Source: Gillisia sp. Hel_I_86
GTDB lineage: Bacteria; Bacteroidota; Bacteroidia; Flavobacteriales; Flavobacteriaceae
Reading direction: 5' to 3'
DNA: 64,000 nt
NCBI RefSeq assembly: GCF_007827275.1
Contig: NZ_VISE01000001.1
Location: 2,046,001 to 2,110,000, forward strand
A program made the position numbers and the translations under genes. A model generated the notes under the pieces. It ran no database searches. It was given only the letters and a program-made list of their open reading frames with translations, and was not told where the DNA came from. Position 1 is the first letter of the stretch; every line of letters starts with the position of its first letter. Of this stretch, positions 2,521 through 14,518 are shown one piece after another.

Positions 2521-2725
2521 CTTTTTAAGATTTTAATTATTAAAATTAATTACACTACAAAGATGGGGTCGGTATAGGGGAGGTCTCCAAATTTATTTTT
2601 AATTATTTTCTGTTTATGATCAAGGGTTGAAAAAATTAGGCTCTTTTGGTTTTTCAGCGTTGGGCTTGTGTGTCGGAAAAAATCAAATGTACCTAATGCG
2701 AGGTGGGCTTCTCTGCTTCCAACTA

Positions 2726-2841
2726 ACGACAGTCTGTCTAAAAACTAAAAATACTCACCTTAGAATGATGTATTTCAATTTTTTCAAAAATACCTGCCCG
2801 AATACTTTACGTATGACAAGAGGTTTTTAGAAAGTCTGACG
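2726..2841. repeat. MITE-like segment with imperfect terminal inverted repeats
   Basis: The left end reads CAGTCTGTCTAAAAAC (about 2729-2744). The reverse complement of the right end (about 2824-2840) reads CAGACTTTCTAAAAAC, a 14 of 16 match. The ~115-bp body encodes nothing. The left-end motif recurs once more at about 3679-3695 (CAGTCTGTCTAATAACC) without a partner. A small non-autonomous insertion is the likeliest reading; no clear target duplication was found. Confidence 0.45.
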
Positions 2842-2993
2842 GTCTTCTTTTAACGCAAGTAGCGTGGAATGGGGACGCTCCCGATGCTATTGGGACTGTC
2901 GGCTTTGTTGTTGGTTACTTGGTGCCTAAAATAACACTTTTCACTAAAATGCCCGCTATTTGCCGTTTACTGACTTGTTGTGCAACGTATTTT
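2839..2993. repeat. Dispersed repeat R1 (attC-like, 3' of a minus-strand gene)
   Basis: The fullest copy of a family seen also at 4700, 6451 and 14134. Shared blocks in order on the plus strand: ACGGTC, TTTAACGCAAGTRGCGTGG, CTCCCGATRGCTATTGGGACTG, TCGGCTTTGTTGTT, CTAAAATAACACTTTTCAC and TGCCCGCTATTTGC. R1 ends GACTTGTTGTGCAACG, ten bases from the stop codon (3003) of the minus-strand ORF above it. Read on the minus strand it therefore begins right after that gene's stop. Internal arms can fold into a long imperfect hairpin. Confidence 0.7.
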
Positions 2994-3002
2994 TTAATTA
3001 TG

Positions 3003-3185
3003 TTAATCTTTTTTATGTTCTTGTTCAGTATGATTTTGATTTCCATTAACCATTTTATCTTCATCATACATTGCATTGGATATTCCTATCATAAATGCGG
3101 TAATGATTAATAGAATTTTTCTTTTTATCCAATAGATAAAATGCTGGGATTTCTCCAGATTGGTTTTGTTTTTTTGTTTATACAT
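3003..3185 (-). CDS. Small membrane protein, unknown
   Basis: 60 residues: a basic N-terminus, one transmembrane segment (ILLIITAFMIGISNAMY) and an acidic, Asn/His-rich tail (DEDKMVNGNQNHTEQ). I do not recognise the family. It follows the next gene upstream by 34 bp on the same strand and ends ten bases before repeat R1, so the pair looks like the coding part of one mobile unit. Confidence 0.45.
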   Translation of the reverse strand: MYKQKNKTNLEKSQHFIYWIKRKILLIITAFMIGISNAMYDEDKMVNGNQNHTEQEHKKD

Positions 3186-3219
3186 TTTGGTAATGATAAA
3201 TGATTAGATATTTATTTTA

Positions 3220-3639
3220 TCATTGTATGCAGTAGGGTGCATATTTGCATAGAAAAGTAAATCCGTTCGATGCTATGTATAAACTTGAATATTGATTACT
3301 GGATGTGATTATTTTGTTTAAAAATGCACGTTGAACTATCTCTGTATTTATCTTTTGGTAAAGCTCAATTCGTAATTTTAAAATAATTTGAGTTTGAGTA
3401 TTAAAAGCCTTTTTTAAATTTTGATATGTAAATAATGCAATTGAAAATAATTTTTCCAAAAGGGTTTTTCCAGTATAGACATACAATTCCGAAGTTTTAT
3501 GACTAAATTTTTTTCTAGTATTAACATATGAAACCTGATGAAAGTTTGCAGAATTTATTCGTGAATATATAGAACACTCGTTAACCGTCAGACCGAAAAT
3601 CAGAAGGAAGGAAATCAGATATTTTATATACTTCATCAA
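3220..3639 (-). CDS. Secreted hypothetical protein, metal-efflux cassette type
   Basis: 139 residues with an N-terminal hydrophobic signal (residues 6-20), followed by a mixed polar domain with motifs SELYVYTGKTLLEKLFS and FLNKIITSSNQYSSLYIAS. From memory, proteins of this appearance accompany cation-efflux genes in Flavobacteriaceae, but the function is unknown. No efflux pump is present here. It is followed by a small membrane-protein gene on the same strand. Confidence 0.55.
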   Translation of the reverse strand: MMKYIKYLISFLLIFGLTVNECSIYSRINSANFHQVSYVNTRKKFSHKTSELYVYTGKTLLEKLFSIALFTYQNLKKAFNTQTQIILKLRIELYQKINTEIVQRAFLNKIITSSNQYSSLYIASNGFTFLCKYAPYCIQ

Positions 3640-4026
3640 TTTATTTAGTTCAAATTATCAATTTGTGTCAATATGTTGCACAATGGCAGTCTGTCTAATA
3701 ACCAAAATCATCAAAATTAAAATCGGAATTTTTTTCATTTTTTTTTAATTTAGAGCTTGAAACATATAAAACTTACAGGTAACAATCTCCGTATATTCGT
3801 CAGTTGAGGTAGTTAATATACAGATTTGTCAGCTTAGGTTATATTTTCTTGATTTCTATATTTTTTCTTTTACCTGAATGGCCGCAATTGTGAATATGCG
3901 TTGTTGGAGGCATTTCGTTGTTTTCTAAGGCTTATTGTACAATACTCGGCTTTATATTAATTTACCTTCATTAATTTTTTATGCTGCTGGTCTATCTTTA
4001 ATTAATCAAAACTTTTATTAACCTGA
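3640..4026. other. Noncoding stretch, 387 bp
   Basis: No gene seen. It holds one unpaired copy of the CAGTCTGTCTAATAACC end motif near 3679 and, around 3885-3955, scattered GC-rich short palindromes (GGCCGCAATTGTG, CGTTGTTGGAGGC). These resemble, but do not match, the dispersed repeat. It lies 3' of the minus-strand lipoprotein gene. Confidence 0.35.
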
Positions 4027-4644
4027 CTAATCAATTCCATCTGCTACAGATTCCCCTTCTAAATTATTGAAAAACAAACCTGTCCAGGTGCCATCTAATT
4101 CTAATGTTTCTCCTGTAGTGGTTTCCCTAAATGTAGCTAAAAAACTAGCTTTATTTTTTCTGAGAAAAACAGTATAGTTAGAAGTTAATGTACTTCTTTG
4201 ATTGAGGGCAAAAGTATCTTTGAAATACCAGGAAAAAGGGAAAGATGATTCTTCTTGTGCCAATGGTACTTTAACACCTCCACCCAGGTAACTGTACTCT
4301 CCAGATAATAAACTTAACTCTTCTGGAATAGACACCTGCACCTCCAAGTAGTTAAGTCCTGTGAATGTTAGGGAATCATTAAATTTAAATATAGAACTTC
4401 CTTGTATATTCTTAAGTGGCTCAATGACTATCTCCATAATTGTATCCGAATCATTTCGAAAATAAAACTCGGGAATTTTTTTTTCTACTATACTTTGCCC
4501 ATCGTTTGTATTTAACTTCCATTGTACTGAAACTAATTCGTAGGATTTTAATTCTTGATCATTATTAATTAAAGTGTCGTCCTCGCTGCAAGATATAAAA
4601 CCAATGGATAAGAATAATGCGATAAATAATTTTGAAAGTTTCAT
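4027..4644 (-). CDS. Lipoprotein of unknown function
   Basis: 205 residues with a clear lipoprotein signal (lipobox GFISC, Cys 19). The mature part is predicted beta-rich, with a WKLN...DLNGT-like start, an FNDSLTFTG segment and a C-terminal ETLELDGTW strand. This suits a small calycin- or lipocalin-like beta barrel, but no family was recognised. It stands alone between noncoding stretches; the repeat-bearing unit of the next minus-strand gene lies upstream. Confidence 0.6.
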   Translation of the reverse strand: MKLSKLFIALFLSIGFISCSEDDTLINNDQELKSYELVSVQWKLNTNDGQSIVEKKIPEFYFRNDSDTIMEIVIEPLKNIQGSSIFKFNDSLTFTGLNYLEVQVSIPEELSLLSGEYSYLGGGVKVPLAQEESSFPFSWYFKDTFALNQRSTLTSNYTVFLRKNKASFLATFRETTTGETLELDGTWTGLFFNNLEGESVADGID

Positions 4645-4953
4645 TTTTTTGTTTTTATTTTTTCAATTTACATATAAGCTGGATTTCCCATAGTGGGTAA
4701 CGGTCTTCTTTTAACGCAAGTGGCGTGGAGTAGGCCCAGTATTTGCGATGAACCGATGTTGAACGAAAACACGGCTAGAAATTGTGGGATTTTAATTTGT
4801 CCCGACAGCATAATAGAACTTCTCCCTCCAACTAGCTCCCTGAAATTATCGTTTTACCCATAGAACCAAATCTACCGGATTCGTCAACACTATATTCAAC
4901 TCTTGCCTATCGGCGTGCCGAATGCTTAGTTGTTACAGTTTTTGTTTTATTAT
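4645..4953. other. Noncoding stretch containing repeat R2 and its extension
   Basis: No gene. Bases 4700-4762 match the two ends of the dispersed repeat with the middle missing. The remainder, to about 4935, is unrelated sequence ending in GTTGTTACAG, just 3' of the lipoprotein gene that stops at 4954. On the minus strand this unit begins GTAACAAC and ends GACCGTTAC, so its boundaries are inverted copies of each other. Confidence 0.45.
4700..4762. repeat. Dispersed repeat R2, internally shortened
   Basis: Begins ACGGTCTTCTTTTAACGCAAG, as R1 does, then TGGCGTGGAGTAGG, and jumps directly to the 3' block AGTATTTGCGATGAACCGA (compare CGCTATTTGCGATAAGCGA in R4). About 80 bp of the middle is missing compared with R1 and R3. 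Confidence 0.6.
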
Positions 4954-5622
4954 TTAATTCACAAACTCAAACTCTTCATAGACATTGTTTATTTTGATCA
5001 ATTTATCATTCTTAAAATATAGTTTAACAGAGTTTCTTCCATCTTTGTTAAAAGAGACATTTTCGAAAAAAGAAAAAAACCATTCATCGTAATTCTTCAT
5101 ATCTGGGTCATATGGTTTTGATAATAATTTAGGAGGAAGAGTAATTTGGTAGTCTTGATAAGTGGGTATTTGGTATATGGCAATTAATTTTTCTATTATA
5201 ATGTCAACAGAATCATCAATATTAATTGAGATATTATTTGGTTGGTTTTCGGGCCACTTTTGAACATAATCTAAAAGTCCTCCTCCTTTTTCTATGGAAA
5301 TCACTTTGTCTTCCTCAAAGGTTATTAAAATTCTTTCTAAAACCCCAAATGTTGTTTCTAATGATATTGAATTATATAGTGAAATATCACTTTGTATTTC
5401 TTCGGGCTTTGAATAAGGCTTTCTATAGGTTACATTTATAGTATTAAATTGTTTTTCAATATTTAATACTTGAAGTTGTTCATAAACTTCCGAAGGAGAG
5501 CTACCAATTTTAAGCGTCCATTTTTTCCCTTTTGTTATATTTTCAACTTGTGGAAAATCATCATCATTCATACAGGATAAGGAAAGCAATACTGTAAGGA
5601 GTAATAATACAATTTTTTGCAT
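4954..5622 (-). CDS. Lipoprotein of unknown function
   Basis: The open frame extends to 5709, but the ATG at 5620-5622 starts a proper lipoprotein signal (MQKIVLLLLTVLLSLSC), so I place the start there; 222 residues. The mature protein has two apparent repeats beginning near residues 40 and 130 (SPSEVYEQLQVLNI and DSVDIIIEKLIAIYQI), each followed by beta strands and a DKVIS/DKLIK hairpin. The function is unknown. It is divergent from the TetR-type gene at 5804 and followed on its own strand by repeat R2. Confidence 0.6.
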   Translation of the reverse strand: MQKIVLLLLTVLLSLSCMNDDDFPQVENITKGKKWTLKIGSSPSEVYEQLQVLNIEKQFNTINVTYRKPYSKPEEIQSDISLYNSISLETTFGVLERILITFEEDKVISIEKGGGLLDYVQKWPENQPNNISINIDDSVDIIIEKLIAIYQIPTYQDYQITLPPKLLSKPYDPDMKNYDEWFFSFFENVSFNKDGRNSVKLYFKNDKLIKINNVYEEFEFVN

Positions 5623-5803
5623 AAGGGGTTTATTTAAATTATTCCGAAGTGCTTTTTGGAATAGACATAAATATATTAATTTTCCCGTTATAGGGAAAAT
5701 ATTAATCAAGATTTTTTTTATTCGATTTATGGTATATTTTTCATCCTCTCAAGCTTTATATTTACAAATAGATATTTTTCATCTATTACCAATATGAGAT
5801 GCC

Positions 5804-6421
5804 ATGGTTAGAAAAAAGTACAAAGGAGAAATCAATGATAAGGAACGGTCAAAACAAAAACTTATAAATGCAGTAGGGAAAGTTCTTAAAACCAAAGGTT
5901 ATACAGGATTAACTGCAACGAATATTGCGAAAGCAGCAGGTTTAAGTCGCCGTCTTATTACCATTTATTTCGATTCTGTTGATGATTTGATAGAAATTTA
6001 TGTTAGAAACAAAGATTATTGGACAGCGGCTTCTGGGAAAGTAGGGGAAATGATGAATGGAAATGAAAGTAGGGATACTAGAAAAATGATTGATTATATT
6101 CTGCAAAATCAACTGGATTATTTTTATAATAATTCTGAAATGCAAAAAATAATTTTGTGGGAAATTAGCGAAAAGACCAAAATCATGTATGATGTTTGTG
6201 AGGAGAGAGAGCGTCTTGGTTCCAAAGTTTTCGCGTTAGCCGATAAAGAGTTTGAGGGTAAAGATATAAGAGCAGTATCAGCAATATTGGTTGCTGGTAT
6301 TTATTATATGGTACTTCATGCGAAATCGACCGACACATTATTTTGCGAGATTGATATAAATCAACCAGAAGGGATGAAAAGAATTAAAAATGCAATTAGT
6401 TTAATACTAGAAAATACATAG
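5804..6421 (+). CDS. TetR/AcrR-family transcriptional regulator
   Basis: 205 residues. Residues 15-62 form the TetR helix-turn-helix (ATNIAKAAGLSRRLITIYF). The C-terminal ligand domain is helical and unlike any I can name. It starts at an ATG in AATATGAGATGCCATGG; an upstream ATG at 5794 is out of frame. It is divergent from the lipoprotein gene (181-bp gap), which it might control, and converges with repeat R3 and the IS element. The ligand is unknown. Confidence 0.8.
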   Translation: MVRKKYKGEINDKERSKQKLINAVGKVLKTKGYTGLTATNIAKAAGLSRRLITIYFDSVDDLIEIYVRNKDYWTAASGKVGEMMNGNESRDTRKMIDYILQNQLDYFYNNSEMQKIILWEISEKTKIMYDVCEERERLGSKVFALADKEFEGKDIRAVSAILVAGIYYMVLHAKSTDTLFCEIDINQPEGMKRIKNAISLILENT

Positions 6422-6450
6422 AAAAAGACATTTTTTTTCAAATTGTTGCC

Positions 6451-6590
6451 GACGGCCTTTAACGCAAGTGGCGTGGAGGAAGGACGCTCCCGATAGCTAT
6501 TGGGACTGTTGGCTTAGGTGGTTTTTACTTGATCCCTAAAATAGCACTTTTCACCAGAATACCCGCTATTTGCTGTTTGCCGACTTAAGT
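6451..6590. repeat. Dispersed repeat R3 (attC-like)
   Basis: Carries all family blocks: ACGGCCTTTAACGCAAGTGGCGTGG, a near-perfect CCCGATAGCTATTGGG palindrome, CTAAAATAGCACTTTTCACC and ACCCGCTATTTGC, ending GTTTGCCGACTTAAG. The ends (GTTGCCGAC at 6445 and GCCGACTTAA at the right) differ from those of the other copies. Once the IS is removed in silico, the stop codon of the minus-strand gene falls at 6594, four bases from this repeat. Confidence 0.7.
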
Positions 6591-6607
6591 TTTTTATTTA
6601 GTGTTTA

Positions 6608-6615
6608 ATATTTTC
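6608..6615. repeat. 8-bp target site duplication, left copy
   Basis: ATATTTTC directly precedes the left terminal inverted repeat of the IS and is repeated exactly at 7491-7498 after the right end. Eight bases is the length known for IS1595-family elements. Confidence 0.92.
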
Positions 6616-7490
6616 GGTTATGTTTTGGAATAATGTGGGAATTTATTATTTATACATCGATCAAATTTACGACAAATGGATTTACGCAATATTTTAAACG
6701 ATCTGGATCGAGCCGAGAAGATCGAGCTGGCGCAGCTTCTCCATCGGGGGCTCAACGTCCCCGACCTAGGGCTTGTGGGCTGGGACATCGGCAACGACCG
6801 CCCGGTGTATTGCCCTCACTGCGAAGACTCGGACATATACGGTCACGGGCACTACAAGGGGCGCAGGCGCTACAAGTGCAGGTCTTGCCACAAGACCTTC
6901 AACGACTTTACCGGTACTGCCGTTGACGGCATAAAGAAGCTGGAAAAGTTCCAAGAATACCTGTTGTTGGTGGTGGAGAGCGACGACAAGCAGTTAGACA
7001 TCAACGACAAGGTCTCGGTGGTGGTCGCCTCGGGCAGGAACGGCGGGAGGACCATGCTTGTGGCAAAGATCGGCAGGATAGATGCGGAAAGCGTCCAGAG
7101 CACGATAGGTGCGCTCATCGCACCGGGCAACGTACTGTGTTCCGATTCCCATCCTTCGATAATCAAATGGGCAAGGGACAACGAACTCGAGCACCATACC
7201 TTTGTGGCGTCGCGCCAACATGTAAAGGACAGGTGCTATCACGTACAGCACGTCAATTCCCGAGACAACCGCTATAAGAGATGGGTCAAGAAGTTTTATG
7301 GGGTTTCGACCAAGTACCTTCGGGGCTACTTGAACTGGTTTGTCTTTCTGGAAAAGATAAAGAAATCTGCCCTACAGGGCTTGGAACTTGCAAGGTGCGT
7401 CGCCAAGAACATCGGTGCAATAAAACTCTATAGCTCTATCGAAAGGAAGTATGAGAAATTGATAGTTCCACAACTTTATAAAACATAACC
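6616..7490 (+). mobile_element. IS1595-family insertion sequence, internally deleted (875 bp)
   Basis: Ends are defined by terminal inverted repeats: left GGTTATGTTTTGGAAT, right (reverse complement) GGTTATGTTTTATAAA. An exact 8-bp duplication, ATATTTTC, flanks them (6608-6615, 7491-7498). The interior is much richer in GC than its surroundings, a sign of recent arrival. It carries one transposase gene missing its central HTH region, so the copy is probably non-autonomous. It interrupts the last codons of a minus-strand gene whose rest lies at 7492-8103. Confidence 0.93.
6676..7488 (+). pseudogene. IS1595-family (ISPna2-like) transposase with in-frame internal deletions
   Basis: 270 residues. 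The zinc ribbon (CPHC at 46-49, CRSC at 73-76) and the FNDFTGTA segment mark the IS1595 family. Catalytic landmarks follow: DDKQLD (first Asp), LCSDSHPS (second Asp) and HVQHVNSRDNRYKRW (the Asn variant of the third residue, ISPna2 type), and the C-terminus looks complete. Family members have about 70-90 more residues here: an HTH between VVES and the first catalytic Asp, and a basic Lys/Arg stretch between DINDK and VSVVV. Both are gone, leaving the frame open. It probably cannot bind the IS ends. Confidence 0.8.
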
Positions 7491-8103
7491 ATATTTTCAA
7501 ATATTCAATTTGAGTCGGAATTTCATCCTTTTCACGCTCTAAATTATATTCATCCAATAGTTCAGGGTATTCAGTTAATAATTCCGTCATAACTTCCCTA
7601 TCAATCATTCTTATTTTATTTGTCTCTTTATCCAAAAGATACAAGAATCTTTTCATTGCAAGAGAAGCACCTGCACTACCTCCCCCAATTGCTCCAAATG
7701 CCATACCCGACTGCATTTCTTTAGTTTGCATGGTTTTATTCATTGGGATTCCCGCTGTGAAAACAAAATATTTTCCGTCACTAATTATTTTTGAATACCA
7801 GGTCTGTAATTTATAAGGCCAACCATTAATGAAGATTGAATCTCCTGTTGAATGTGCGACAATTTCCTTTTTTAATACTTTTCTTTTTATTGATTTGTCA
7901 GCGGAAATCAATTTGTAATTATTTCCACCATTCATTTTAATGTCTGATTTTGTTCTTCTTTCTATTGTTAAATCAAAGTTTTTACTTGGAGTTTTTGCTT
8001 TTAACTCCTCCAAACTCATATAACTACCTTGTGGATAAATTTCCTGGGATGTGGCTGAAATACTCATCAATAGGACTGCTAAAATTAATGTTGTAAACAA
8101 CAC
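7372..8103 (-). CDS. Secreted protein of unknown function with an IS-encoded tail
   Basis: 243 residues as it stands. An N-terminal hydrophobic signal (residues 3-19) precedes a secreted domain with YMSLEELKAKTPS, a Gly-rich SGMAFGAIGGGSAGAS hairpin and a Tyr/Asp/Glu-rich end. Residues 205-243 are read from inside the IS. Rejoining the target site gives ...EYLKILNTK then TAA at 6594-6596, so the native protein had about 208 residues and lost only four. The start is GTG at 8103 with an in-frame stop just upstream; no ATG is available. I do not recognise the family with certainty. Confidence 0.6.
   Translation of the reverse strand: MLFTTLILAVLLMSISATSQEIYPQGSYMSLEELKAKTPSKNFDLTIERRTKSDIKMNGGNNYKLISADKSIKRKVLKKEIVAHSTGDSIFINGWPYKLQTWYSKIISDGKYFVFTAGIPMNKTMQTKEMQSGMAFGAIGGGSAGASLAMKRFLYLLDKETNKIRMIDREVMTELLTEYPELLDEYNLEREKDEIPTQIEYLKIWLCFIKLWNYQFLILPFDRAIEFYCTDVLGDAPCKFQAL
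7491..7498. repeat. 8-bp target site duplication, right copy
   Basis: ATATTTTC, identical to 6608-6615 and immediately outside the right inverted repeat of the IS. Confidence 0.92.
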
Positions 8104-8331
8104 TACTTTTCACTCCGTGACGGATTTACGCACTAACTATTCGGTTTATAACTGACCTTTATTTTATGTTTATATTTTCATTTTAGCACTTATTCCGCTA
8201 TTTTTTTATATACATTCTTGTGTTTAGTGTCTAAGAGTTGTTCACCTTAAGTAGTTCGAATACTTATGAAAACATGAAAGTCGTACATGGCGTTGCACGA
8301 CTTTCATTTGAACAAGATAGCACTTTAACAA
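8104..8331. other. Intergenic stretch with a hairpin
   Basis: No gene. Besides the hairpin at 8274-8307, bases 8110-8200 are AT-rich with a GTGCGTAAAT motif on the minus strand and no clear promoter. Confidence 0.3.
8274..8307 (-). terminator. Hairpin downstream of the 8332-9021 gene
   Basis: ATGAAAGTCGT (8274-8284) and ACGACTTTCAT (8297-8307) form a perfect 11-bp stem with a 12-nt loop. It lies 24 bp past the stop of the minus-strand gene. There is no long T tract, so its terminator role is inferred from position. Confidence 0.5.
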
Positions 8332-9021
8332 TTACTCTTTGTTTAATACCATAATTTGTGAAACAGGTTCGCTTGTTATTGCTGCATTTTTCATGGCTTC
8401 TTTCAAATTGGACTTTTCTAAAAAAGAAGTAATATCATTCGTGTCTTCGGCGTTGAAAATTGCCACAACATTTAAGCGATTGTCCAAATCTTTTCCAAGC
8501 GCAGTAAGTGAAATCTTATACTCTGACCGAACATTCTGATGGTTATCAAATGCTTTTTTCCACTGTTTGTAATCCTTTACGGTGTGTTGAATGATCAAAA
8601 AAGCATCACCTGTTGGGATTCCTGAATTGGAAACTTTGAAATAGGTGAAAGTCGGCTTACTGGTCACTCCTGCCGCTCCCATTAACTCAGCTGTTTTAGG
8701 ATCTGTGAAAAAATCTTTCCCAGTTTTCACATTCTCGAGTTCAAAAACTACGGTTATAAAATTCGGATCAGAGGCCCCTCTTAGGATAAGCTTTTCTACT
8801 ATTCCAGCTTTTTTTCTCCTTTCGGCATCCTTTTTATAAGCCGTTTTCCAAATGCCAAAGTCTGCAACATTGTGTTGAACCAATACACACGTCATTCCTC
8901 CAAGTATATGATATGTGAAAGAGAAATTTTCTGCTTCGTTTTGGCTGGTTTGAGAATAGGACATTGTTACTGAAAGCGCCAATATCAGCGTTAATGCGAG
9001 TTTGATTTTAAAGTATTTCAT
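8332..9021 (-). CDS. Secreted protein with two tandem ferredoxin-like (ABM/DUF-type) domains
   Basis: 229 residues with a classic signal peptide ending near SYSQ (residue 23). Two similar halves follow, residues 42-128 and 138-226. Each starts with a strand ending in QHNV/QHTV, continues with W(K)xAY/AF..., has a V/LNVVxxxxxxE strand, and ends with an E..KxAMxxAxxTSxP helix-strand. This is the pattern of a duplicated antibiotic-biosynthesis-monooxygenase-like fold. It is exported, so a cytosolic enzyme role is unlikely. It lies 18 bp downstream of the methyltransferase gene and probably in its operon. Confidence 0.6.
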   Translation of the reverse strand: MKYFKIKLALTLILALSVTMSYSQTSQNEAENFSFTYHILGGMTCVLVQHNVADFGIWKTAYKKDAERRKKAGIVEKLILRGASDPNFITVVFELENVKTGKDFFTDPKTAELMGAAGVTSKPTFTYFKVSNSGIPTGDAFLIIQHTVKDYKQWKKAFDNHQNVRSEYKISLTALGKDLDNRLNVVAIFNAEDTNDITSFLEKSNLKEAMKNAAITSEPVSQIMVLNKE

Positions 9022-9039
9022 TTTAATATAGTTTATGGT

Positions 9040-10077
9040 TTATTTAATAGCTATTACTGCACTCGAAGGCCCTGTAAGAGGCATTATGGATGTTTCTTTA
9101 AATCCAACTTCCTTGGCCCATTGGTTGAAATCGGCAAAAGAAAAGTCAAATCCCTCTGGTGTTTCAATCATCATGTTCAGAGACATCAATAGGCCAAATG
9201 CATTTTTATTTCGCGTATCATCAATGATATTTTCTATCACCACCAAACTGCCCCCCTCAGGAAGTGCTTGGTAGGCTTTCTTCATTAATCGTTTCTTTTC
9301 AACCACCCCCCAGTCATGAAGTACATTGCCCATGGTAATTACATCTGTATTTGGAATTTCATCTTTGAAAAAATCACCCGAAAGCACCTTCACCTTTTCA
9401 GCAAGGCCCATGTTCTCAATGTTTTGAGAAGCCAAAGGCGAAACAGGTGGCAAGTCGTATGATATGCATTTCATATGTGGATTGAGCTGTGCCACTTGAG
9501 CGGCGAGATATCCACCGGCTCCTCCCAAATCGCATAAGGTTTGATACCCAGAGAAATCAAATCTATGTGACAATGCCATGAAATTGCCCATTTGAATGCC
9601 ACCCATAGCTCCTAAAAATTCACTTAACAAAGCTTGGTCTCTATATAAAATTTCGAAAATGGGTTTTCCTCCCGAACGTGTCTCATTTTGGGGCTTTCCT
9701 GTTTTTAGACCTTCTTCCAGATTGTTCCAAAAAGGATATAAACGATTATTTGCCATTTCAAGCATTCCACCAACATAGCTAGGTTTATTCTTGTCGAGAA
9801 AAAGCGCTGAATCTTCAGCATTTCGGTACGTAGCAGTTTCCTTCAAGCCGTTTCTTTCCAGAAATCCGAGCGCCACTAATGCATCCAGAAAGTCATAAAG
9901 ATTTCTATGGTGTAATCCTAGTTTGGTTTGTATGTCCTTTCCAGACAATTCTCCCGCAGATAAATAGGTAAATAGCTCCATATTAATCGCCGTAAGAAGT
10001 GTTTTTGAGGCCCAAAATCCCAAGCCAATTTGCATGATTTTGGACGGGTCGATTTGTTTTTCAATTGTTGTTTCCAT
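9040..10077 (-). CDS. SAM-dependent O-methyltransferase (two-domain type)
   Basis: 345 residues. The N-terminal 110 residues resemble the winged-helix dimerisation domain of plant-type/polyketide O-methyltransferases (LGLHHRNLYDFLDALVALGFLER). The C-terminal Rossmann domain has the SAM motif DLGGAGGYLAAQ (near residue 185), an acidic strand end DLP, GDFF, and a VLHDW segment whose His-Asp pair is catalytic or substrate-binding in this family. It probably methylates a small hydroxylated compound. The second gene of a likely NmrA-methyltransferase-secreted protein operon. Confidence 0.8.
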   Translation of the reverse strand: METTIEKQIDPSKIMQIGLGFWASKTLLTAINMELFTYLSAGELSGKDIQTKLGLHHRNLYDFLDALVALGFLERNGLKETATYRNAEDSALFLDKNKPSYVGGMLEMANNRLYPFWNNLEEGLKTGKPQNETRSGGKPIFEILYRDQALLSEFLGAMGGIQMGNFMALSHRFDFSGYQTLCDLGGAGGYLAAQVAQLNPHMKCISYDLPPVSPLASQNIENMGLAEKVKVLSGDFFKDEIPNTDVITMGNVLHDWGVVEKKRLMKKAYQALPEGGSLVVIENIIDDTRNKNAFGLLMSLNMMIETPEGFDFSFADFNQWAKEVGFKETSIMPLTGPSSAVIAIK

Positions 10078-10143
10078 TTTTAATTTTTTTAGTAATTAAT
10101 TAAAGTGGTTTATTGTAATTTATGAGTGTTAAACAGTGAATGC

Positions 10144-11043
10144 TTATTCCAGAAAGAAGGGCGCAAACTTTTCCTTGTTTTCTGTGAGCCATTGTTCAAA
10201 TCCTTTTATTTCAGGATACATTTCATGACTTGATTTCCGGTCTGCTTTTCTTTCTAGAATGTGTAATCGGTTGCAGGTAAACTGAGTTGCAAGATCTTCT
10301 GCTCCCGGGAAGCCAAATGAAGCAAAGACCTCTCTTGGTATATCCTTGTATTGGATGGTTTTCCCAAGAACCTTCGTCATGATCTCGGCATACTTTACAG
10401 GCTCCAAGTCTTCAGCAACAGCACCTATAAGTTTCCCGATGTATTTAGAAGGGTCGCTGAAAATCGTGTTTACGATTCCACCTAAATCTTCAATGGACAA
10501 AGCAGCCAATGGCGTATTCCCTTGCGGGAACCCGAATCCATAAGTGCCATCTTCCTGTTTCATTGGTGGAAAGAAGGATAGAAAATTCTCGAAATAAAAG
10601 GCTGCATGAACATACGTTGTTGGCGTGTCTTTCGATCTGCTGTAATTCTCCATGGCCGCTTTGGTTTCAAAATGAGGTACGGATAAAGTTCCATTGGATA
10701 ATTGTTCAGCACTTGGAAGCGTACTGAAAACAAAGTGGTCAATATTTGCTGCTTCTACAGCATCTACCAGGTTTAGTCCCTGTTGTAATTCTCCACCGAA
10801 ATGTTCCCAAAAATTGGTGACACCAAATACCCCATAGCAGCCTTGCATGGCTGCAATGAGCGTTTCCTTGTCAGATAAATCTGCTTTTATAATTTCGGCA
10901 CCCTTTGATTCGAGTGCGAGAGCAGCATCAGATTCGGGGTTTCTGGTGAGACACCTTACTTTAAAATTTTCCTGTTGTAATAAATGGCGAGCTACACTGC
11001 CTCCTTGGGCTCCTGTTGCTCCAGTAACTAATATGGTTTTCAT
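10144..11043 (-). CDS. NmrA-like NAD(P)-binding protein
   Basis: 299 residues of the atypical short-chain dehydrogenase/NmrA family. The N-terminus has the dinucleotide motif VTGATGAQGGSVARHL. Next come RCLTRNPES (NADP-type basic residue), a KADLSD strand end and NFWEHFGGE. NmrA-like proteins are sensors or reductases of NAD(P) state; the Ser-Tyr-Lys triad is not evident, so a regulatory or atypical redox role is possible. It is followed after 66 bp by the methyltransferase gene, suggesting modification of a shared small molecule. Confidence 0.78.
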   Translation of the reverse strand: MKTILVTGATGAQGGSVARHLLQQENFKVRCLTRNPESDAALALESKGAEIIKADLSDKETLIAAMQGCYGVFGVTNFWEHFGGELQQGLNLVDAVEAANIDHFVFSTLPSAEQLSNGTLSVPHFETKAAMENYSRSKDTPTTYVHAAFYFENFLSFFPPMKQEDGTYGFGFPQGNTPLAALSIEDLGGIVNTIFSDPSKYIGKLIGAVAEDLEPVKYAEIMTKVLGKTIQYKDIPREVFASFGFPGAEDLATQFTCNRLHILERKADRKSSHEMYPEIKGFEQWLTENKEKFAPFFLE

Positions 11044-11169
11044 TTTATCTTCATTTAAGTTTGATTTCTTAGGTCAAAAATGCTTAAATGAAGTATGAGA
11101 GGGAAAAAAAAGGAATGAACGTCCCTGTTAAGGGAGTAAATGGCTTAAAAAAGGGAGTGAAGAAAATGA

Positions 11170-12465
11170 CTATTTCCTCGGAAGTAGCAAATGGATGCTG
11201 GTTCCTGCTTTTGAACTTTCTATATTGATGGTTCCTTTATTGAGCAGCATAAATTCGTTGACGAGCACCAGACCTAAGCCTGACCCCTTTTCACGATCCG
11301 TTCCAAGTGTGCTCTTGTTTTCCTGAAGTGAAAACAGGGTTTCAATCTTTTCATGATCCATTCCAATACCAGTGTCTTTGATCGTGATTTGAACGTTGTC
11401 CTCAATATCATTGGTAGAGACCTCAATTTGTCCGCCTGAGGGCGTAAACTTTATGGAATTGCTGATTACATTTCTCAATACACTAAAAATCATATTGTAA
11501 TCAGCAAATACGGATGCTTTATCATCATCAAAATGCAAAAAACGAATATGCTTAGAAGCAATGAAATCGGTGAAAAGATGATGAACGTCTTTTATCAAAG
11601 GCTGTAAATCTATTTTTTGAGGTGAGCATTGAAGGCCTTCTTGCTGGCCCAGAGACCAATTCAAGAGGTTGTCGAGGAGTTGATTAACGTTTTTTGCTGC
11701 AAAACTGATCCTTGGCCCCAGCGCCAGGAGCTGTTCATTTTTTCCTTTCGCATTGTAGTATTCAAATAGTTCAGCGATCCCCTCCAGGGAGGTAACAGGA
11801 CTTCTTAGGTCGTGCCCAATTATAGAAAATAAGCGATCCTTTGTTTTGTTCAGGTTTTCCAGCTCCTTGGTACGAAGTTTTACGCGTTCTTCCAATTGCT
11901 CGAAGACGATGGAGTTTTGAATAGAGACCGCTATTTGCTGAGATAGCGTCATTAAAAACACTTCATCTGATTTATGGAAAAACAGGATGTCCTCACTTTC
12001 ACAAGACAAAACGGCCACCAATTCATTATTGGCAATAAGCGGCAAAGCCACTAAACTTTCAGCATTGGGGAGACCGGGAAGTTTGATAGTTTGGGAAGCG
12101 GATTTATCTTTTTTGTGGAAGGCATTTGCATATTTTCGATACTGAGATAATCGGGAAATTCTTAATTTTTTCTTCTTGCTGGCCACAGTGCCTACTACAC
12201 CATAATTAAAGGGTATCTCAACGCCAATTCCTAAATCGCAAAATCCCCGGCTGGCAAAAACCCGAAGTATGGTATCTTTCTTAGCCGGAAACAAAAGCAT
12301 GGTGTGCTTTAGATTGAAATTATCGTCTAGTAATTCTAAAATATTATCGAGCTTTTCCTTCAGGGGAGAAAGCTTTGCGAGCTCTACGGCAACATTTCTT
12401 AAAAGCACGTTTTTTCTCTTCTCTTCTAGGAGTTCTTTCTCTAATGACTCAATTGATTTTTCCAT
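11170..12465 (-). CDS. GAF-domain sensor histidine kinase
   Basis: 431 residues, cytosolic (no membrane segment). Coiled start (1-20), GAF domain (about 20-185), coiled linker, HisKA dimerisation domain with the phospho-acceptor in IIGHDLRSPVTSLEG (residue ~220), and HATPase domain with NSIKFTPSGG (N box), DTGIGM (G1) and GSGLGLVLV (G2). All kinase boxes are intact. The start overlaps the upstream PPOX-like gene by 17 bp, so the genes are coupled. With the LytTR regulator at the head of the operon it should form a two-component system sensing a soluble cue through the GAF domain. Confidence 0.88.
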   Translation of the reverse strand: MEKSIESLEKELLEEKRKNVLLRNVAVELAKLSPLKEKLDNILELLDDNFNLKHTMLLFPAKKDTILRVFASRGFCDLGIGVEIPFNYGVVGTVASKKKKLRISRLSQYRKYANAFHKKDKSASQTIKLPGLPNAESLVALPLIANNELVAVLSCESEDILFFHKSDEVFLMTLSQQIAVSIQNSIVFEQLEERVKLRTKELENLNKTKDRLFSIIGHDLRSPVTSLEGIAELFEYYNAKGKNEQLLALGPRISFAAKNVNQLLDNLLNWSLGQQEGLQCSPQKIDLQPLIKDVHHLFTDFIASKHIRFLHFDDDKASVFADYNMIFSVLRNVISNSIKFTPSGGQIEVSTNDIEDNVQITIKDTGIGMDHEKIETLFSLQENKSTLGTDREKGSGLGLVLVNEFMLLNKGTINIESSKAGTSIHLLLPRK

Positions 12466-12868
12466 TGAGCACGAGCGTTTGAATTGATTCGACTTTGCAA
12501 ATAACTGCAGATTGCAATTTGAAAGTATCTTCCATACCCTGCATGGATGCTATTGCCGTAATGATCATGTTCATTTCTTCAAACAAGTCGCCTTCCGTTT
12601 CTTCTTTCTCAAAGCATAGGTTAATTTTCCAGAGGGAAAACGTTTCAGGGCAGTTTACAGCTACCGTAAAATGTGGATTCTCGTTGATGTTTTTCCAGGT
12701 TTTGCTAAAAAACTGCCGTGATATAGCCAGGTAGTCCTCATCTATGTAGTGAACATGCGAAATATACGTCACATTTGGCGTTCCATCAAGAGACACCGTG
12801 GCAAGTGTAGGTGGTATAACACCTTGAAAGGCAGGAAACATATCCTGTGTTATTTTGTTTTTCATCAT
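12449..12868 (-). CDS. Pyridoxamine-5'-phosphate-oxidase-like FMN-binding protein
   Basis: 139 residues of the split-barrel PPOX class: PTLATVSLDGTPNVTYIS at residues 19-36 and a KTWKNINENPHFTVAV segment are characteristic. Such proteins bind FMN, F420 or haem. It sits between a second split-barrel-like gene and the GAF kinase, overlapping the kinase by 17 bp, which suggests a flavin- or redox-linked input to the two-component system. Its substrate is unknown. Confidence 0.7.
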   Translation of the reverse strand: MMKNKITQDMFPAFQGVIPPTLATVSLDGTPNVTYISHVHYIDEDYLAISRQFFSKTWKNINENPHFTVAVNCPETFSLWKINLCFEKEETEGDLFEEMNMIITAIASMQGMEDTFKLQSAVICKVESIQTLVLNGKIN

Positions 12869-12871
12869 CTC

Positions 12872-13342
12872 TTAGTCCGTTAGTTTGCCTCCTGTTCCAG
12901 GTTTGGGTGTCTGTTCATACACTTCGGTAAACCGCATCCTCACCGCAATGCTGGGTTGATCTAATAAGTAACCAAAAATTCCGTCTCCATCCAACCCCAT
13001 ACCACTTAGTATTTCAATGATTTTAAGGACTTTTGGCTGATACAAATTAACATTTTCCTCGGTACACATTTGATGACTTACATACTTCCCTTTTATCTGA
13101 TAAGATTCAAAGTTGAGTATTGAAGCCATTAAAAAGCTGATTTTCGAATCAGCCTCGAGCGTTGGTTCTATAATTTCAAACAATTGCTTTGGAAGAAAAA
13201 TGATAATGTGTTCATTGTCCACTTCAATGGTATAGCCAGCGACCCGAGTCAACTCACAAATCTTATTTTTATTTACTGAGGCCACCCAAAAAAGGAATTC
13301 CTGTAGGCCAGATATTGTTTTTATTCTTTCAGTAATTTCCAT
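12872..13342 (-). CDS. Probable second split-barrel (PPOX-like) protein
   Basis: 156 residues. The middle (NFESYQIKGKYVSHQMCTEEN) and the end (EVYEQTPKPGTGGKL) resemble the later strands and C-terminal tail of PPOX-class FMN proteins, but the N-terminal half is less typical. It is three bases upstream of the PPOX-like gene and 25 bp downstream of the LytTR regulator, in the same operon. A flavin- or haem-binding partner of its neighbour is the best guess. Confidence 0.5.
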   Translation of the reverse strand: MEITERIKTISGLQEFLFWVASVNKNKICELTRVAGYTIEVDNEHIIIFLPKQLFEIIEPTLEADSKISFLMASILNFESYQIKGKYVSHQMCTEENVNLYQPKVLKIIEILSGMGLDGDGIFGYLLDQPSIAVRMRFTEVYEQTPKPGTGGKLTD

Positions 13343-13367
13343 GAAAAACTAAATTAGAGAAAATCTA

Positions 13368-14099
13368 TCAAAGTATGCTAATTCTGGAAAGAAAAGCGCG
13401 CCTATATGTTTTTCCAATTCCAATTTTCTTCTCCCCAATCAATAACATATTTTGAGTCAGTTTAATATCATCAATGGCTTCGAGATTGATGATATAAGAG
13501 CGATGCACTTGTAAGAAAAGATCATCTGGGAACTTTTCGGATATGTTCTTTAACCGTTCCTTAATCATGTACTTCTTGTTCTGTAGATGGATGTAGCAAT
13601 ACTTGTCATACGCTTCAATATATCTGATGTCTGAGAGTAGCACTTTCGTTAATGAAGCGCCGTCTTTCACAAAAAGATGCTTTGTTATACGCGTATTAAT
13701 AGAGCTAGCGATACCTATTCTTTCCTTTTGTTTATTAAAAATCGCAAGCGCTATACTTCGCTCTAATTCCTCTGCTTTATATGGTTTAGTGATGTAGGCC
13801 ACAGGTTGTGTTTCCTTGGCTTTATTGAAAGTACTAGCATCATGAAACGAGGTTAAAAAAACGGTTGGAATATCAAATAACTCATTGATTTTATTAACCA
13901 AATCAATTCCCGAGATATCACTATTCAAATCAACATCCATCAATAAGATATCAGGATTTGTTGCTCGAATTATAGGAATCACCTGATGAGGATCAACTAT
14001 AACATCAATTAAATCGTATTTTAATGAATCCATCACCATTCGAAGTTTTGCTTCATGAATGGGATCGTCTTCTGTTGCTAATATTCTAATTTTGGACAT
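13368..14099 (-). CDS. LytTR-family response regulator
   Basis: 243 residues. The receiver domain (1-120) has the acidic pair EDD near residue 10, the phospho-acceptor in ILLMDVDLN (Asp ~56), VFLTS (Thr ~83) and KPYKAEEL (Lys ~105). A LytTR DNA-binding domain (about 140-240) follows, with IRYIEAYDKYCYIHL and FLQVHRSYIINLEAID. First gene of a four-gene minus-strand operon with two PPOX-like proteins and a GAF histidine kinase. Repeat R4 lies just upstream. Confidence 0.9.
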   Translation of the reverse strand: MSKIRILATEDDPIHEAKLRMVMDSLKYDLIDVIVDPHQVIPIIRATNPDILLMDVDLNSDISGIDLVNKINELFDIPTVFLTSFHDASTFNKAKETQPVAYITKPYKAEELERSIALAIFNKQKERIGIASSINTRITKHLFVKDGASLTKVLLSDIRYIEAYDKYCYIHLQNKKYMIKERLKNISEKFPDDLFLQVHRSYIINLEAIDDIKLTQNMLLIGEKKIGIGKTYRRAFLSRISIL

Positions 14100-14133
14100 T
14101 TACAGTTGATTCTATCAAAGTGAATTAAACACA

Positions 14134-14256
14134 ACGGTCTTTAACGCAATTAGCGTGGAGTAGGGACGCAAACTCGTCGGCTTTGTTGTTTTTTAGTTGG
14201 TCTCTAAAATAACACTTTTCACTGGAATGCCCGCTATTTGCGATAAGCGACTTGGC
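14134..14256. repeat. Dispersed repeat R4 (attC-like)
   Basis: Blocks: ACGGTCTTTAACGCAATTAGCGTGGAG, GGGACGC, GTCGGCTTTGTTGTT, CTAAAATAACACTTTTCACTGG, TGCCCGCTATTTGCGATAAGCGACTTG. The CCCGATAGCTATTGGG hairpin of R1 and R3 is missing. It is preceded by ACACA (14129-14133), giving a CACAACGGTC start that is nearly inverse-complementary to the GACTTGTTGTG end of R1. Its right end is seven bases from the stop codon (14263) of a decayed minus-strand gene. Confidence 0.7.
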
Positions 14257-14262
14257 AGCTTT

Positions 14263-14518
14263 TTATTTTTTTCTATAAATACTTATAAGACCTGCTTGCT
14301 TATCATCCGCTAGTAGCTCTTTTATTCTTTTAGCACGTGCTCCTTCATTTAATGTTCCGTTATTATCGAAAAATTTGTCATACCATTTATTCTTTTGTCA
14401 TACTGAGAATTTTTACTTTGAATATCTGCATAAAATAATCTCTCAAAATTACTTTTGTCGAATAAATTATCTAAATCATTTTCTGAAAAAAAATGTTTGA
14501 AATAAGAATTGTTTTTTG
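14263..14518 (-). pseudogene. Frameshifted C-terminal fragment of an unknown gene
   Basis: Reading leftwards, the minus strand encodes a continuous-looking C-terminus in two frames: first SYFKHFFSENDLDNLF...IQSKNSQYDK, then, after a one-base shift near 14390, NKWYDKFFDNN...KELLADDKQAGLISIYRKK and a stop at 14263. The protein family was not recognised. The upstream end is cut by the ATPase remnant on the other strand. It is immediately followed by repeat R4. Confidence 0.6.

Follow-up and report, generated by a model that had tools for sequence, protein, structure and literature searches.

Repeats of a Gillisia genome as probable attC-type sites of an integron-like cassette system with a recombinase outside the IntI clade

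Introduction

In a 64,000-nucleotide stretch of the genome of Gillisia sp. Hel_I_86 (Bacteroidota, Flavobacteriales, Flavobacteriaceae; contig NZ_VISE01000001.1, positions 2,046,001 to 2,110,000; hereafter the window), a first-pass annotation pointed out a dispersed repeat located just past the stop codons of minus-strand genes, and compared its four copies with attC, the recombination site of integron cassettes. Are these repeats indeed sites of a cassette system, and if so, which recombinase serves them? We searched the complete genome, a single contig of 4,245,106 bases, as well as related genomes, and conclude that the repeats are very probably attC-type sites of an integron-like cassette system, whose integrase is related to Xer and IntI proteins and lies outside the IntI clade. 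The attC-like reading is borne out by co-directional arrays in the same genome, by complementarity between the head and the tail of each cassette, by covarying stems and by attI-like array ends.

The additional domain of IntI has been used in surveys as the mark of an integron integrase (passages of PMC2426708), and the usual tool searches for IntI profiles and attC covariance models (passages of PMC9024848). The IntegronFinder 2 paper names one complete integron in Bacteroidetes proper, that of Salinibacter ruber.

Results

Three co-directional arrays are present in the genome

Iterated nhmmer searches over selected stretches of the genome gave 129 matches, partial ones included. Most of these form three arrays with lengths of 38-77 kb, all on the minus strand: array A with 61 matches (1.631-1.706 Mb), array B with 19 (3.175-3.213 Mb) and array C with 39 (3.391-3.468 Mb). 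Five of the remaining ten matches lie in the window and the others at single places. A search of the whole genome with a 59-copy family model gave at least 137 sites at E ≤ 0.01 (150 of 2355 candidates were scored); this model stores only nine base pairs, and it is therefore mainly a sequence model. In addition, a small group of sites is found on the plus strand (877145-906084), with an attI-like match containing one mismatch at 879054-879079.

The sites have the anatomy of attC

On the site strand, the elements follow each other in the order R'' (ending in CAAC), a 3-nt spacer ATC, L'' (GTTTAAC), about 90 nt, L' (GTTAAAC), a 6-nt spacer AAGACC and G|TTR, in which the bar denotes the predicted crossover. 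Both R''/R' and L''/L' are inverted pairs with unpaired spacers, as in attC, and GTTR is present in all 20 unique GTT heads. The bases past GTTR vary between cassettes, yet they complement bases at the opposite end of their own cassette, which precede CAAC and lie hundreds of bases off. For the analysis of this complementarity, 95 GTT-headed intervals were kept out of 108, the 13 that start with the end of an insertion sequence (IS) being omitted, and the 57 unique cassettes among them were used. Complementary bases were found at 273 of 342 positions, compared with 108.0±10.6 (maximum 146) in 2000 shuffles. For 66 cassettes of other genomes, the corresponding values were 323 of 396 and 126.1±11.2 (maximum 165).

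The inner stem covaries as well. Among 31 distinct stems obtained from 190 sites, 165 of 217 L''/L' positions are paired when wobble is counted, compared with 136.3±5.0 (maximum 154) for shuffled and 57-84 for slid arms; the second pair of the stem occurs as GC, TA, CG and AT. Of 109 sites of this genome, 99 have one extra base on the R''-L'' arm, as do 63 of 81 sites that nhmmer detected in relatives, and 12 of 56 sites of other genera found by a structure motif (see below) have one extrahelical base on the opposite arm. The single-strand folding recommended in the first-pass annotation was carried out for two circle-closed sites, and in both cases the bottom strand folded better than the top strand (-25.5 versus -22.1 and -27.4 versus -21.6). 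Features of this kind are those that passages of PMC2727003 give for attC: paired R and L boxes, an unpaired central spacer, a terminal structure and use of the bottom strand.

An attI-like sequence marks the array entries

The pattern TATATTNNNNNNGATATAACNNGTTR was compiled from array C and from the sequence that follows the recombinase gene in related loci. Its perfect matches in the genome are confined to the entry ends of arrays C (3468527-3468552), A (1707084-1707109) and B (3214002-3214027), and its backward version, used as a control, had no match in the genome. Array C begins, at its attI-like end, with a cassette whose head, GTTAGCCAC, is complementary to its tail. A looser pattern follows the recombinase gene within 400 nt in 61 of 74 loci, is missing there in the other 13 and precedes the gene in none of the 74. 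By eye, the attI-like site contains two short inverted arms. As judged from sequence, the layout appears to be that of an attI site beside the integrase gene with the array behind it. Array B has a different tyrosine recombinase gene (3214387-3214872; open frame of 410 aa) some 360 bp upstream of its attI-like end.

The recombinase at the array entry is not an IntI

A tyrosine recombinase gene near clusters of the repeat, which the first-pass annotation had suggested looking for, is present at the array entry both here and in many related genomes. In Gillisia sp. Hel_I_86 the gene, at 3468558-3469697 of the minus strand, encodes a protein of 379 aa and marks the array C entry; a C-terminal remnant of the same recombinase is found at the entry of array A. 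The arrays run away from the recombinase, co-directional with its gene. Residues R215, K240, H304, R307, H330 and Y339, which we take to have the catalytic roles, are invariant in all 32 rows of the alignment.

The insert of about 42 residues that characterizes IntI is absent from all 106 relatives measured (out of 108, one was omitted as short and one was not measurable), and the missing stretch is apparent in the alignment. In these 106 proteins the catalytic-motif gap is 57-59 aa, versus 100 aa in 19 of 19 IntI proteins. The recombinase scored below the cut-offs of the IntI profile TIGR02249 (200.8 bits; cut-off 265), the XerC profile (178; cut-off 335) and the XerD profile (173.7; cut-off 329.6), and just under that of the archaeal XerA profile NF040815 (215.7; cut-off 220). 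No IntI over the cut-off was detected in the genome.

In a phylogenetic tree, the 20 IntI rows form one clade (100/99) that contains no flavobacterial row, and the clade of the recombinase family (38 rows; 100/99) lies outside it. The 59 flavobacterial rows come together as one group at 62/91, with several long branches, and at least one member that has an array (L064, whose array is in L198) sits in a second flavobacterial group. A sister relation of IntI and the recombinase family was not resolved in this tree, in which two other recombinases of the genome cluster with Xer. The recombinase also bears an extra N-terminal domain of its own (residues 1-80), with a weak, non-significant fold match to XPB DRD / SMARCAL1 HARP. 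By its sequence, the protein is a tyrosine recombinase related to Xer and IntI, and not an IntI.

Two IS91-like elements encode one and the same tyrosine recombinase protein in opposite orientations, at 1624855-1626824 (plus strand), some 4 kb outside array A beyond its low-coordinate end, and at 1696792-1697622 (minus strand), inside array A. Their recombinases (1.625 and 1.697 Mb) were considered as array integrases but set aside; they are two copies of the same protein, followed by an IS91-type transposase.

The linkage between recombinase and array extends across genera

Relatives of the recombinase are encoded in 82 of 296 genomes of the order (E ≤ 1e-40) and in 72 of 395 genomes of the phylum (E ≤ 1e-55), 45 of the latter outside the family. 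Its position at the array entry recurs across many genera, mostly Flavobacteriaceae, and the closest recombinases among the loci listed, which are 84% identical, belong to Gillisia. At least 80 loci were listed, all with at least 1.5 kb upstream and only 50 with at least 1.5 kb downstream; fewer long downstream flanks would be expected if the repeats break assemblies.

A sequence-only nhmmer search detected sites in 24 of 110 related loci (our own included; many have just 1.5 kb of flank). For the rest, de novo repeats and a structure-only motif were needed. The structure-only motif gave 63 matches downstream on the same strand (338 kb), none on the opposite strand and one upstream (736 kb). 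A relaxed version gave 113 matches downstream on the same strand, one downstream on the opposite strand and 2 + 1 upstream, and was present in 37 of the 50 loci whose downstream flank reaches 1.5 kb. When ten loci were aligned, the site sequences were found to diverge strongly between genera while their grammar is kept. Another 33 loci, which belong to other genera and orders, gave 26 motif matches downstream on the same strand and none upstream.

A zero-spacer variant of the motif, an idea taken from a Chryseobacterium plasmid, had no match downstream and one upstream in the 33 loci; one locus, L200, with 247 nt downstream, was excluded. Region 3980-5300 of this plasmid (L186; Weeksellaceae) contains a full-length relative followed by an attI-like end and, immediately next, a hairpin, as read by eye; its site type seems to differ. 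An Acinetobacter variabilis plasmid (L187:2474-4450) carries a truncated relative (49% identity, query 172-357) that is co-oriented with the annotated tet(X3) gene and ends 189 bp before it. An attI-like junction, CACTTG|TTATGTGCC, precedes tet(X3), and GGCTACTAAC past its stop codon is complementary to GTTATGTGCC at 7 of 10 positions (by eye). These features hint faintly that tet(X3) may once have been captured as a cassette.

Cassettes occur as units in varied neighbourhoods

Among 106 cassettes, 48 are present in more than one copy and group into 17 families, with minima of 90% identity and 93% length coverage. The physically adjacent downstream neighbours differ between copies in all 17 families, and the upstream neighbours in 14 of 17. 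The junction letters of 24 copies belonging to six families switch at GACCG|TT. Comparison of an 827-bp cassette with a Lutibacter locus revealed 79% identity over the first 673 bases, the match beginning at base 1. Copies of one cassette may bear different loop variants; exchange between repeats therefore seems to occur.

The site strand carries the main open reading frame (ORF) in 52 of 64 representatives that have an ORF, and in 29 of 32 cassettes shorter than 1.5 kb. Of 60 cassettes, 30 have their last site-strand stop codon 7-29 nt before R''; in 7 the ORF slightly overlaps the site, and in 23 its stop is farther away. Copies at random relative to gene ends, which the first-pass annotation had put forward as evidence against attC, were not observed: the copies share one polarity and are associated with gene ends. 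Pfam searches with 82 proteins picked from 143 ORFs revealed PIN, ParE and helix-turn-helix proteins, transposases, and an HpaII-type endonuclease and C5 methylases. A content rich in toxin-antitoxin genes is usual in large integrons.

A transposase belonging to the repeat itself, the other outcome named as adverse, was not seen either; instead, IS elements have inserted into some copies. In 13 of 108 array intervals, the crossover point of the site (GACCG T|) is occupied by an IS with ends CAGACTGTCTAAAAACC, which is also present at 2709-2838 and 3684-3706 of the window. Its transposase is probably a protein of 512-527 aa that is present in several intervals.

The copies in the window are decayed

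The family model matches all four minus-strand copies (R1 to R4) where the first-pass annotation had placed them; R1, R3 and R4 are among the rows of the 59-copy model, and R2 is not. The count of four was one short, a fifth and diverged copy having been overlooked. The features of this region are as follows.

2709..2838, no strand assigned: IS remnant at the crossover end of R1, with inverted ends CAGTCTGTCTAAAAAC / GTTTTTAGAAAGTCTG (by-eye reading)
2839..2986, minus: site R1; model match at 2835-2982 (E 1e-20), R'' arm GTTGCACAAC at 2977-2986, low-coordinate end ..GACCG
2987..3683, minus: body of the R1 cassette, with ORFs at 3003-3185 and 3220-3639 and head TTGTGCAAC (3683 down to 3675)
3684..3706, no strand assigned: end of a second IS remnant, directly preceding the head of the R1 cassette (by-eye reading)
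3778..3910, minus: fifth attC-like site, diverged (E 2e-5 with the 59-copy model, E 9e-7 by iterated nhmmer)
4027..4644, minus: ORF of 205 aa lying upstream of the fifth site; its start resembles that of a lipoprotein (by eye)
4696..4765, minus: site R2, from which the terminal loop region has been lost; model E 2e-5, CAAC-ATC-GGTTCATCGC and GCGTTAAAAGAAGACCGTTA kept
4954..5709, minus: ORF upstream of R2
6448..6592, minus: site R3, with degenerate L and R boxes; model E 4e-19
14130..14259, minus: site R4, with a degenerate L box; model E 5e-24, followed by the cassette head GTTGTGTTTAATTC

R1 and R3 are related in a BLAST comparison (E 1.6e-32), and the middle of R2 is missing in the sequence, as had been described. 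The near-complementarity of the copy ends, also described previously, is explained by a cassette head complementing its own tail: in R1, the head TTGTGCAAC (3675-3683, read on the minus strand) is the exact complement of the tail GTTGCACAAC over 9 nt (9/9). An IS end similar to that of the remnant at 2709..2838 follows 13 of the 108 array sites. The common end proposed for the copies, GCGTTAAA..GACCG, is present in R1, R2 and R4, but R3 has GCGTTAAAGGCCGTCGG instead.

The proposed association with gene ends stands for R1, about 16 nt past the stop codon at 3003 of a 60-codon ORF, and for R2, about 190 nt past the stop codon at 4954, but not for R3 and R4, where we could not confirm it. Near R4, a stop codon at 14263 was absent among the three longest ORFs found (the best, of 41 codons, stops at 14471). 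The gene end at R3 becomes visible only after removal of an IS and was not confirmed. A 270-aa ORF that looks by eye like a zinc-ribbon transposase is located at 6676-7488, within the gene said to end at R3. The window copies, with their degenerate L and R boxes, are decayed outlying cassettes and not an active array. Both structure-motif scans gave no site in the window, among these degenerate copies or elsewhere. A comparison of the region with a plasmid collection gave no match.

Discussion

We propose the following scheme for the system. The recombinase gene would be followed by an attI-like core, TATATT-N6-GATATAAC-NN-G|TTR. Each cassette would comprise a gene or gene pair together with a site of about 125 nt, R''(N6 YAAC)-N3-L''..loop..L'-N6-R'(G|TTR N6), and its excised circle would bring R'' and R' together. 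The bottom strand would then form a hairpin, the presumed substrate, which the recombinase would cut at G|TT, perhaps aided in recognition by its N-terminal domain. Given a cut at this position, the first bases of a cassette would travel with it and hence remain complementary to its own tail. Insertion at attI would build arrays that read away from the recombinase in a single direction, from which cassettes could later be excised, copied or reshuffled.

Several points weigh against this interpretation. Recombination by this enzyme is a prediction, and its specificity is deduced from linkage. The 106 cassettes were bounded at G|TT by the analyst, and the crossover base rests on that choice. The pattern for the attI-like sequence was derived partly from array C itself, and near-matches occur at 879054 (one mismatch), beside the small group of sites, and at 3393529 (two mismatches), inside array C on the other strand. 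In classical integrons, the R-box consensus is RYYYAAC / GTTRRRY; here, only 1 of 20 unique heads fits GTTRRRY and 3 of 29 unique tails fit RYYYAAC. The relaxed motif is absent in 13 of the 50 loci whose downstream flank reaches 1.5 kb. Among the 33 further loci, 22 lack a same-strand downstream motif (15 of these 22 have self-repeats downstream and 7 upstream), and four motif matches are on the opposite strand downstream. Such motif-free loci either have a different type of site or encode family members that do not serve arrays. Finally, an extrahelical base on the R''-L'' arm is found in none of the 56 motif-found sites of other genera, although the motif scan, which first requires four paired bases, may favour unbulged stems. 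Extrahelical bases are a hallmark of known attC sites, and it is the insert of IntI that is said to read them (passages of PMC4792948). Their absence, if real, agrees with a recombinase that does not read them.

Could the sites instead be double-stranded, similar to those of Xer/dif, and exchanged as two strands, with a hairpin that has no mechanistic role? By sequence, the recombinase comes closest to XerA, and it has no IntI insert; the attI-like site has its two inverted arms, and many related sites have no extrahelical bases. However, binding of a protein to double-stranded arms requires neither complementarity of the far ends nor covariation of L'' and L', the two spacers differ in length (3 and 6 nt) and the motif matches are almost all in one orientation. 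We consider this explanation unlikely.

The cassettes might also be ordinary IntI cassettes whose IntI has been lost or is encoded elsewhere (CALIN), in which case the neighbouring recombinase would be incidental. The attC-like anatomy is compatible with this, and true IntI is common in the phylum (over the cut-off in 105 of 395 genomes). However, the Gillisia genome has no such IntI, none of 106 IntI-matching genomes belongs to this family or order, and the same non-IntI recombinase adjoins polar arrays in many genera, which makes this explanation highly improbable. We attach equally little weight to passive homologous recombination between repeated sites that are relics of another element: this would account for the different loop variants in copies of one cassette, but homologous exchange yields neither head/tail complementarity nor conserved attI-like entry ends. 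Lastly, a miniature inverted-repeat transposable element (MITE) or IS family dispersed 3' of genes, brought to mind by the dispersed repeat and the IS remnants beside R1, is refuted by the lack of fixed terminal inverted repeats, the covarying ends that differ between cassettes and the polar arrays beside the recombinase, the IS ends being insertions into sites.

By sequence tests, the attC-type sites and their arrays have the anatomy of an integron, whereas the IntI insert, membership of the IntI clade and the classical R boxes are all lacking. It is for this combination that we call the system a new integron variant, not of the IntI type. A broader proposal, for and against which we see about equal grounds, is that it represents a second integron lineage, Bacteroidota-wide and prominent in Flavobacteriaceae, with folded single-stranded attC-type sites, no IntI insert and an XPB/HARP-like domain that recognises folded DNA; it would be either a survivor from before the insert or an independent invention. 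Searches of the open-licence PMC literature, a scope that leaves aside subscription papers and preprints, yielded no paper describing a non-IntI integrase together with attC-type arrays in Flavobacteriia. Bacteroidota may also contain a large reservoir of cassettes that has been overlooked.

Comparison with known systems

The closest sequence and structure matches of the recombinase are with XerA (PDB 4a8e, 5hxy). XerA acts on dif to resolve chromosome dimers. Its catalytic-motif gap is similar to that of the present recombinases (60 and 62 residues versus 57-59 here), but it is not linked to arrays and lacks the extra N-terminal domain. CTXphi shares with the present system a folded site, that of the phage, used by recombinases without the IntI insert, the XerCD proteins of the host (passages of PMC4792948), but it has no integrase of its own, no cassettes and no array.

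With sedentary chromosomal integrons that have IntI and attC, such as the Vibrio superintegron, the system shares the order R''-spacer-L''-loop-L'-spacer-R', the GTT crossover, an attI-like site beside the recombinase gene, a bottom strand that folds better and long co-directional arrays of small cassettes with toxin-antitoxin-like and restriction genes. The integrase gene of classical integrons is divergent from the array, whereas it is co-directional here. Further differences from IntI integrons are that the integrase lies outside the IntI clade, without the IntI insert and with an extra N-terminal domain, that the R box is GTTRNNN and not GTTRRRY, that the spacers measure 3 and 6 nt and that extrahelical bases are not conserved in the family. 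The R arms are complementary over about 10 nt, and passages of PMC2727003 give 9-11 for attC.

A survey of simple tyrosine recombinases describes an 'integron-like' subgroup, to which the present recombinases may belong, and calls the insertion essential for integron function (passages of PMC8138268). In contrast to that view, insert-free proteins stand here at the entry of attC-type arrays. Whether attC sites or the IntI insert came first has been called a chicken-egg paradox (passages of PMC4792948); natural attC-type arrays served without the insert would make this question testable, and would bear on the origin of integrons.

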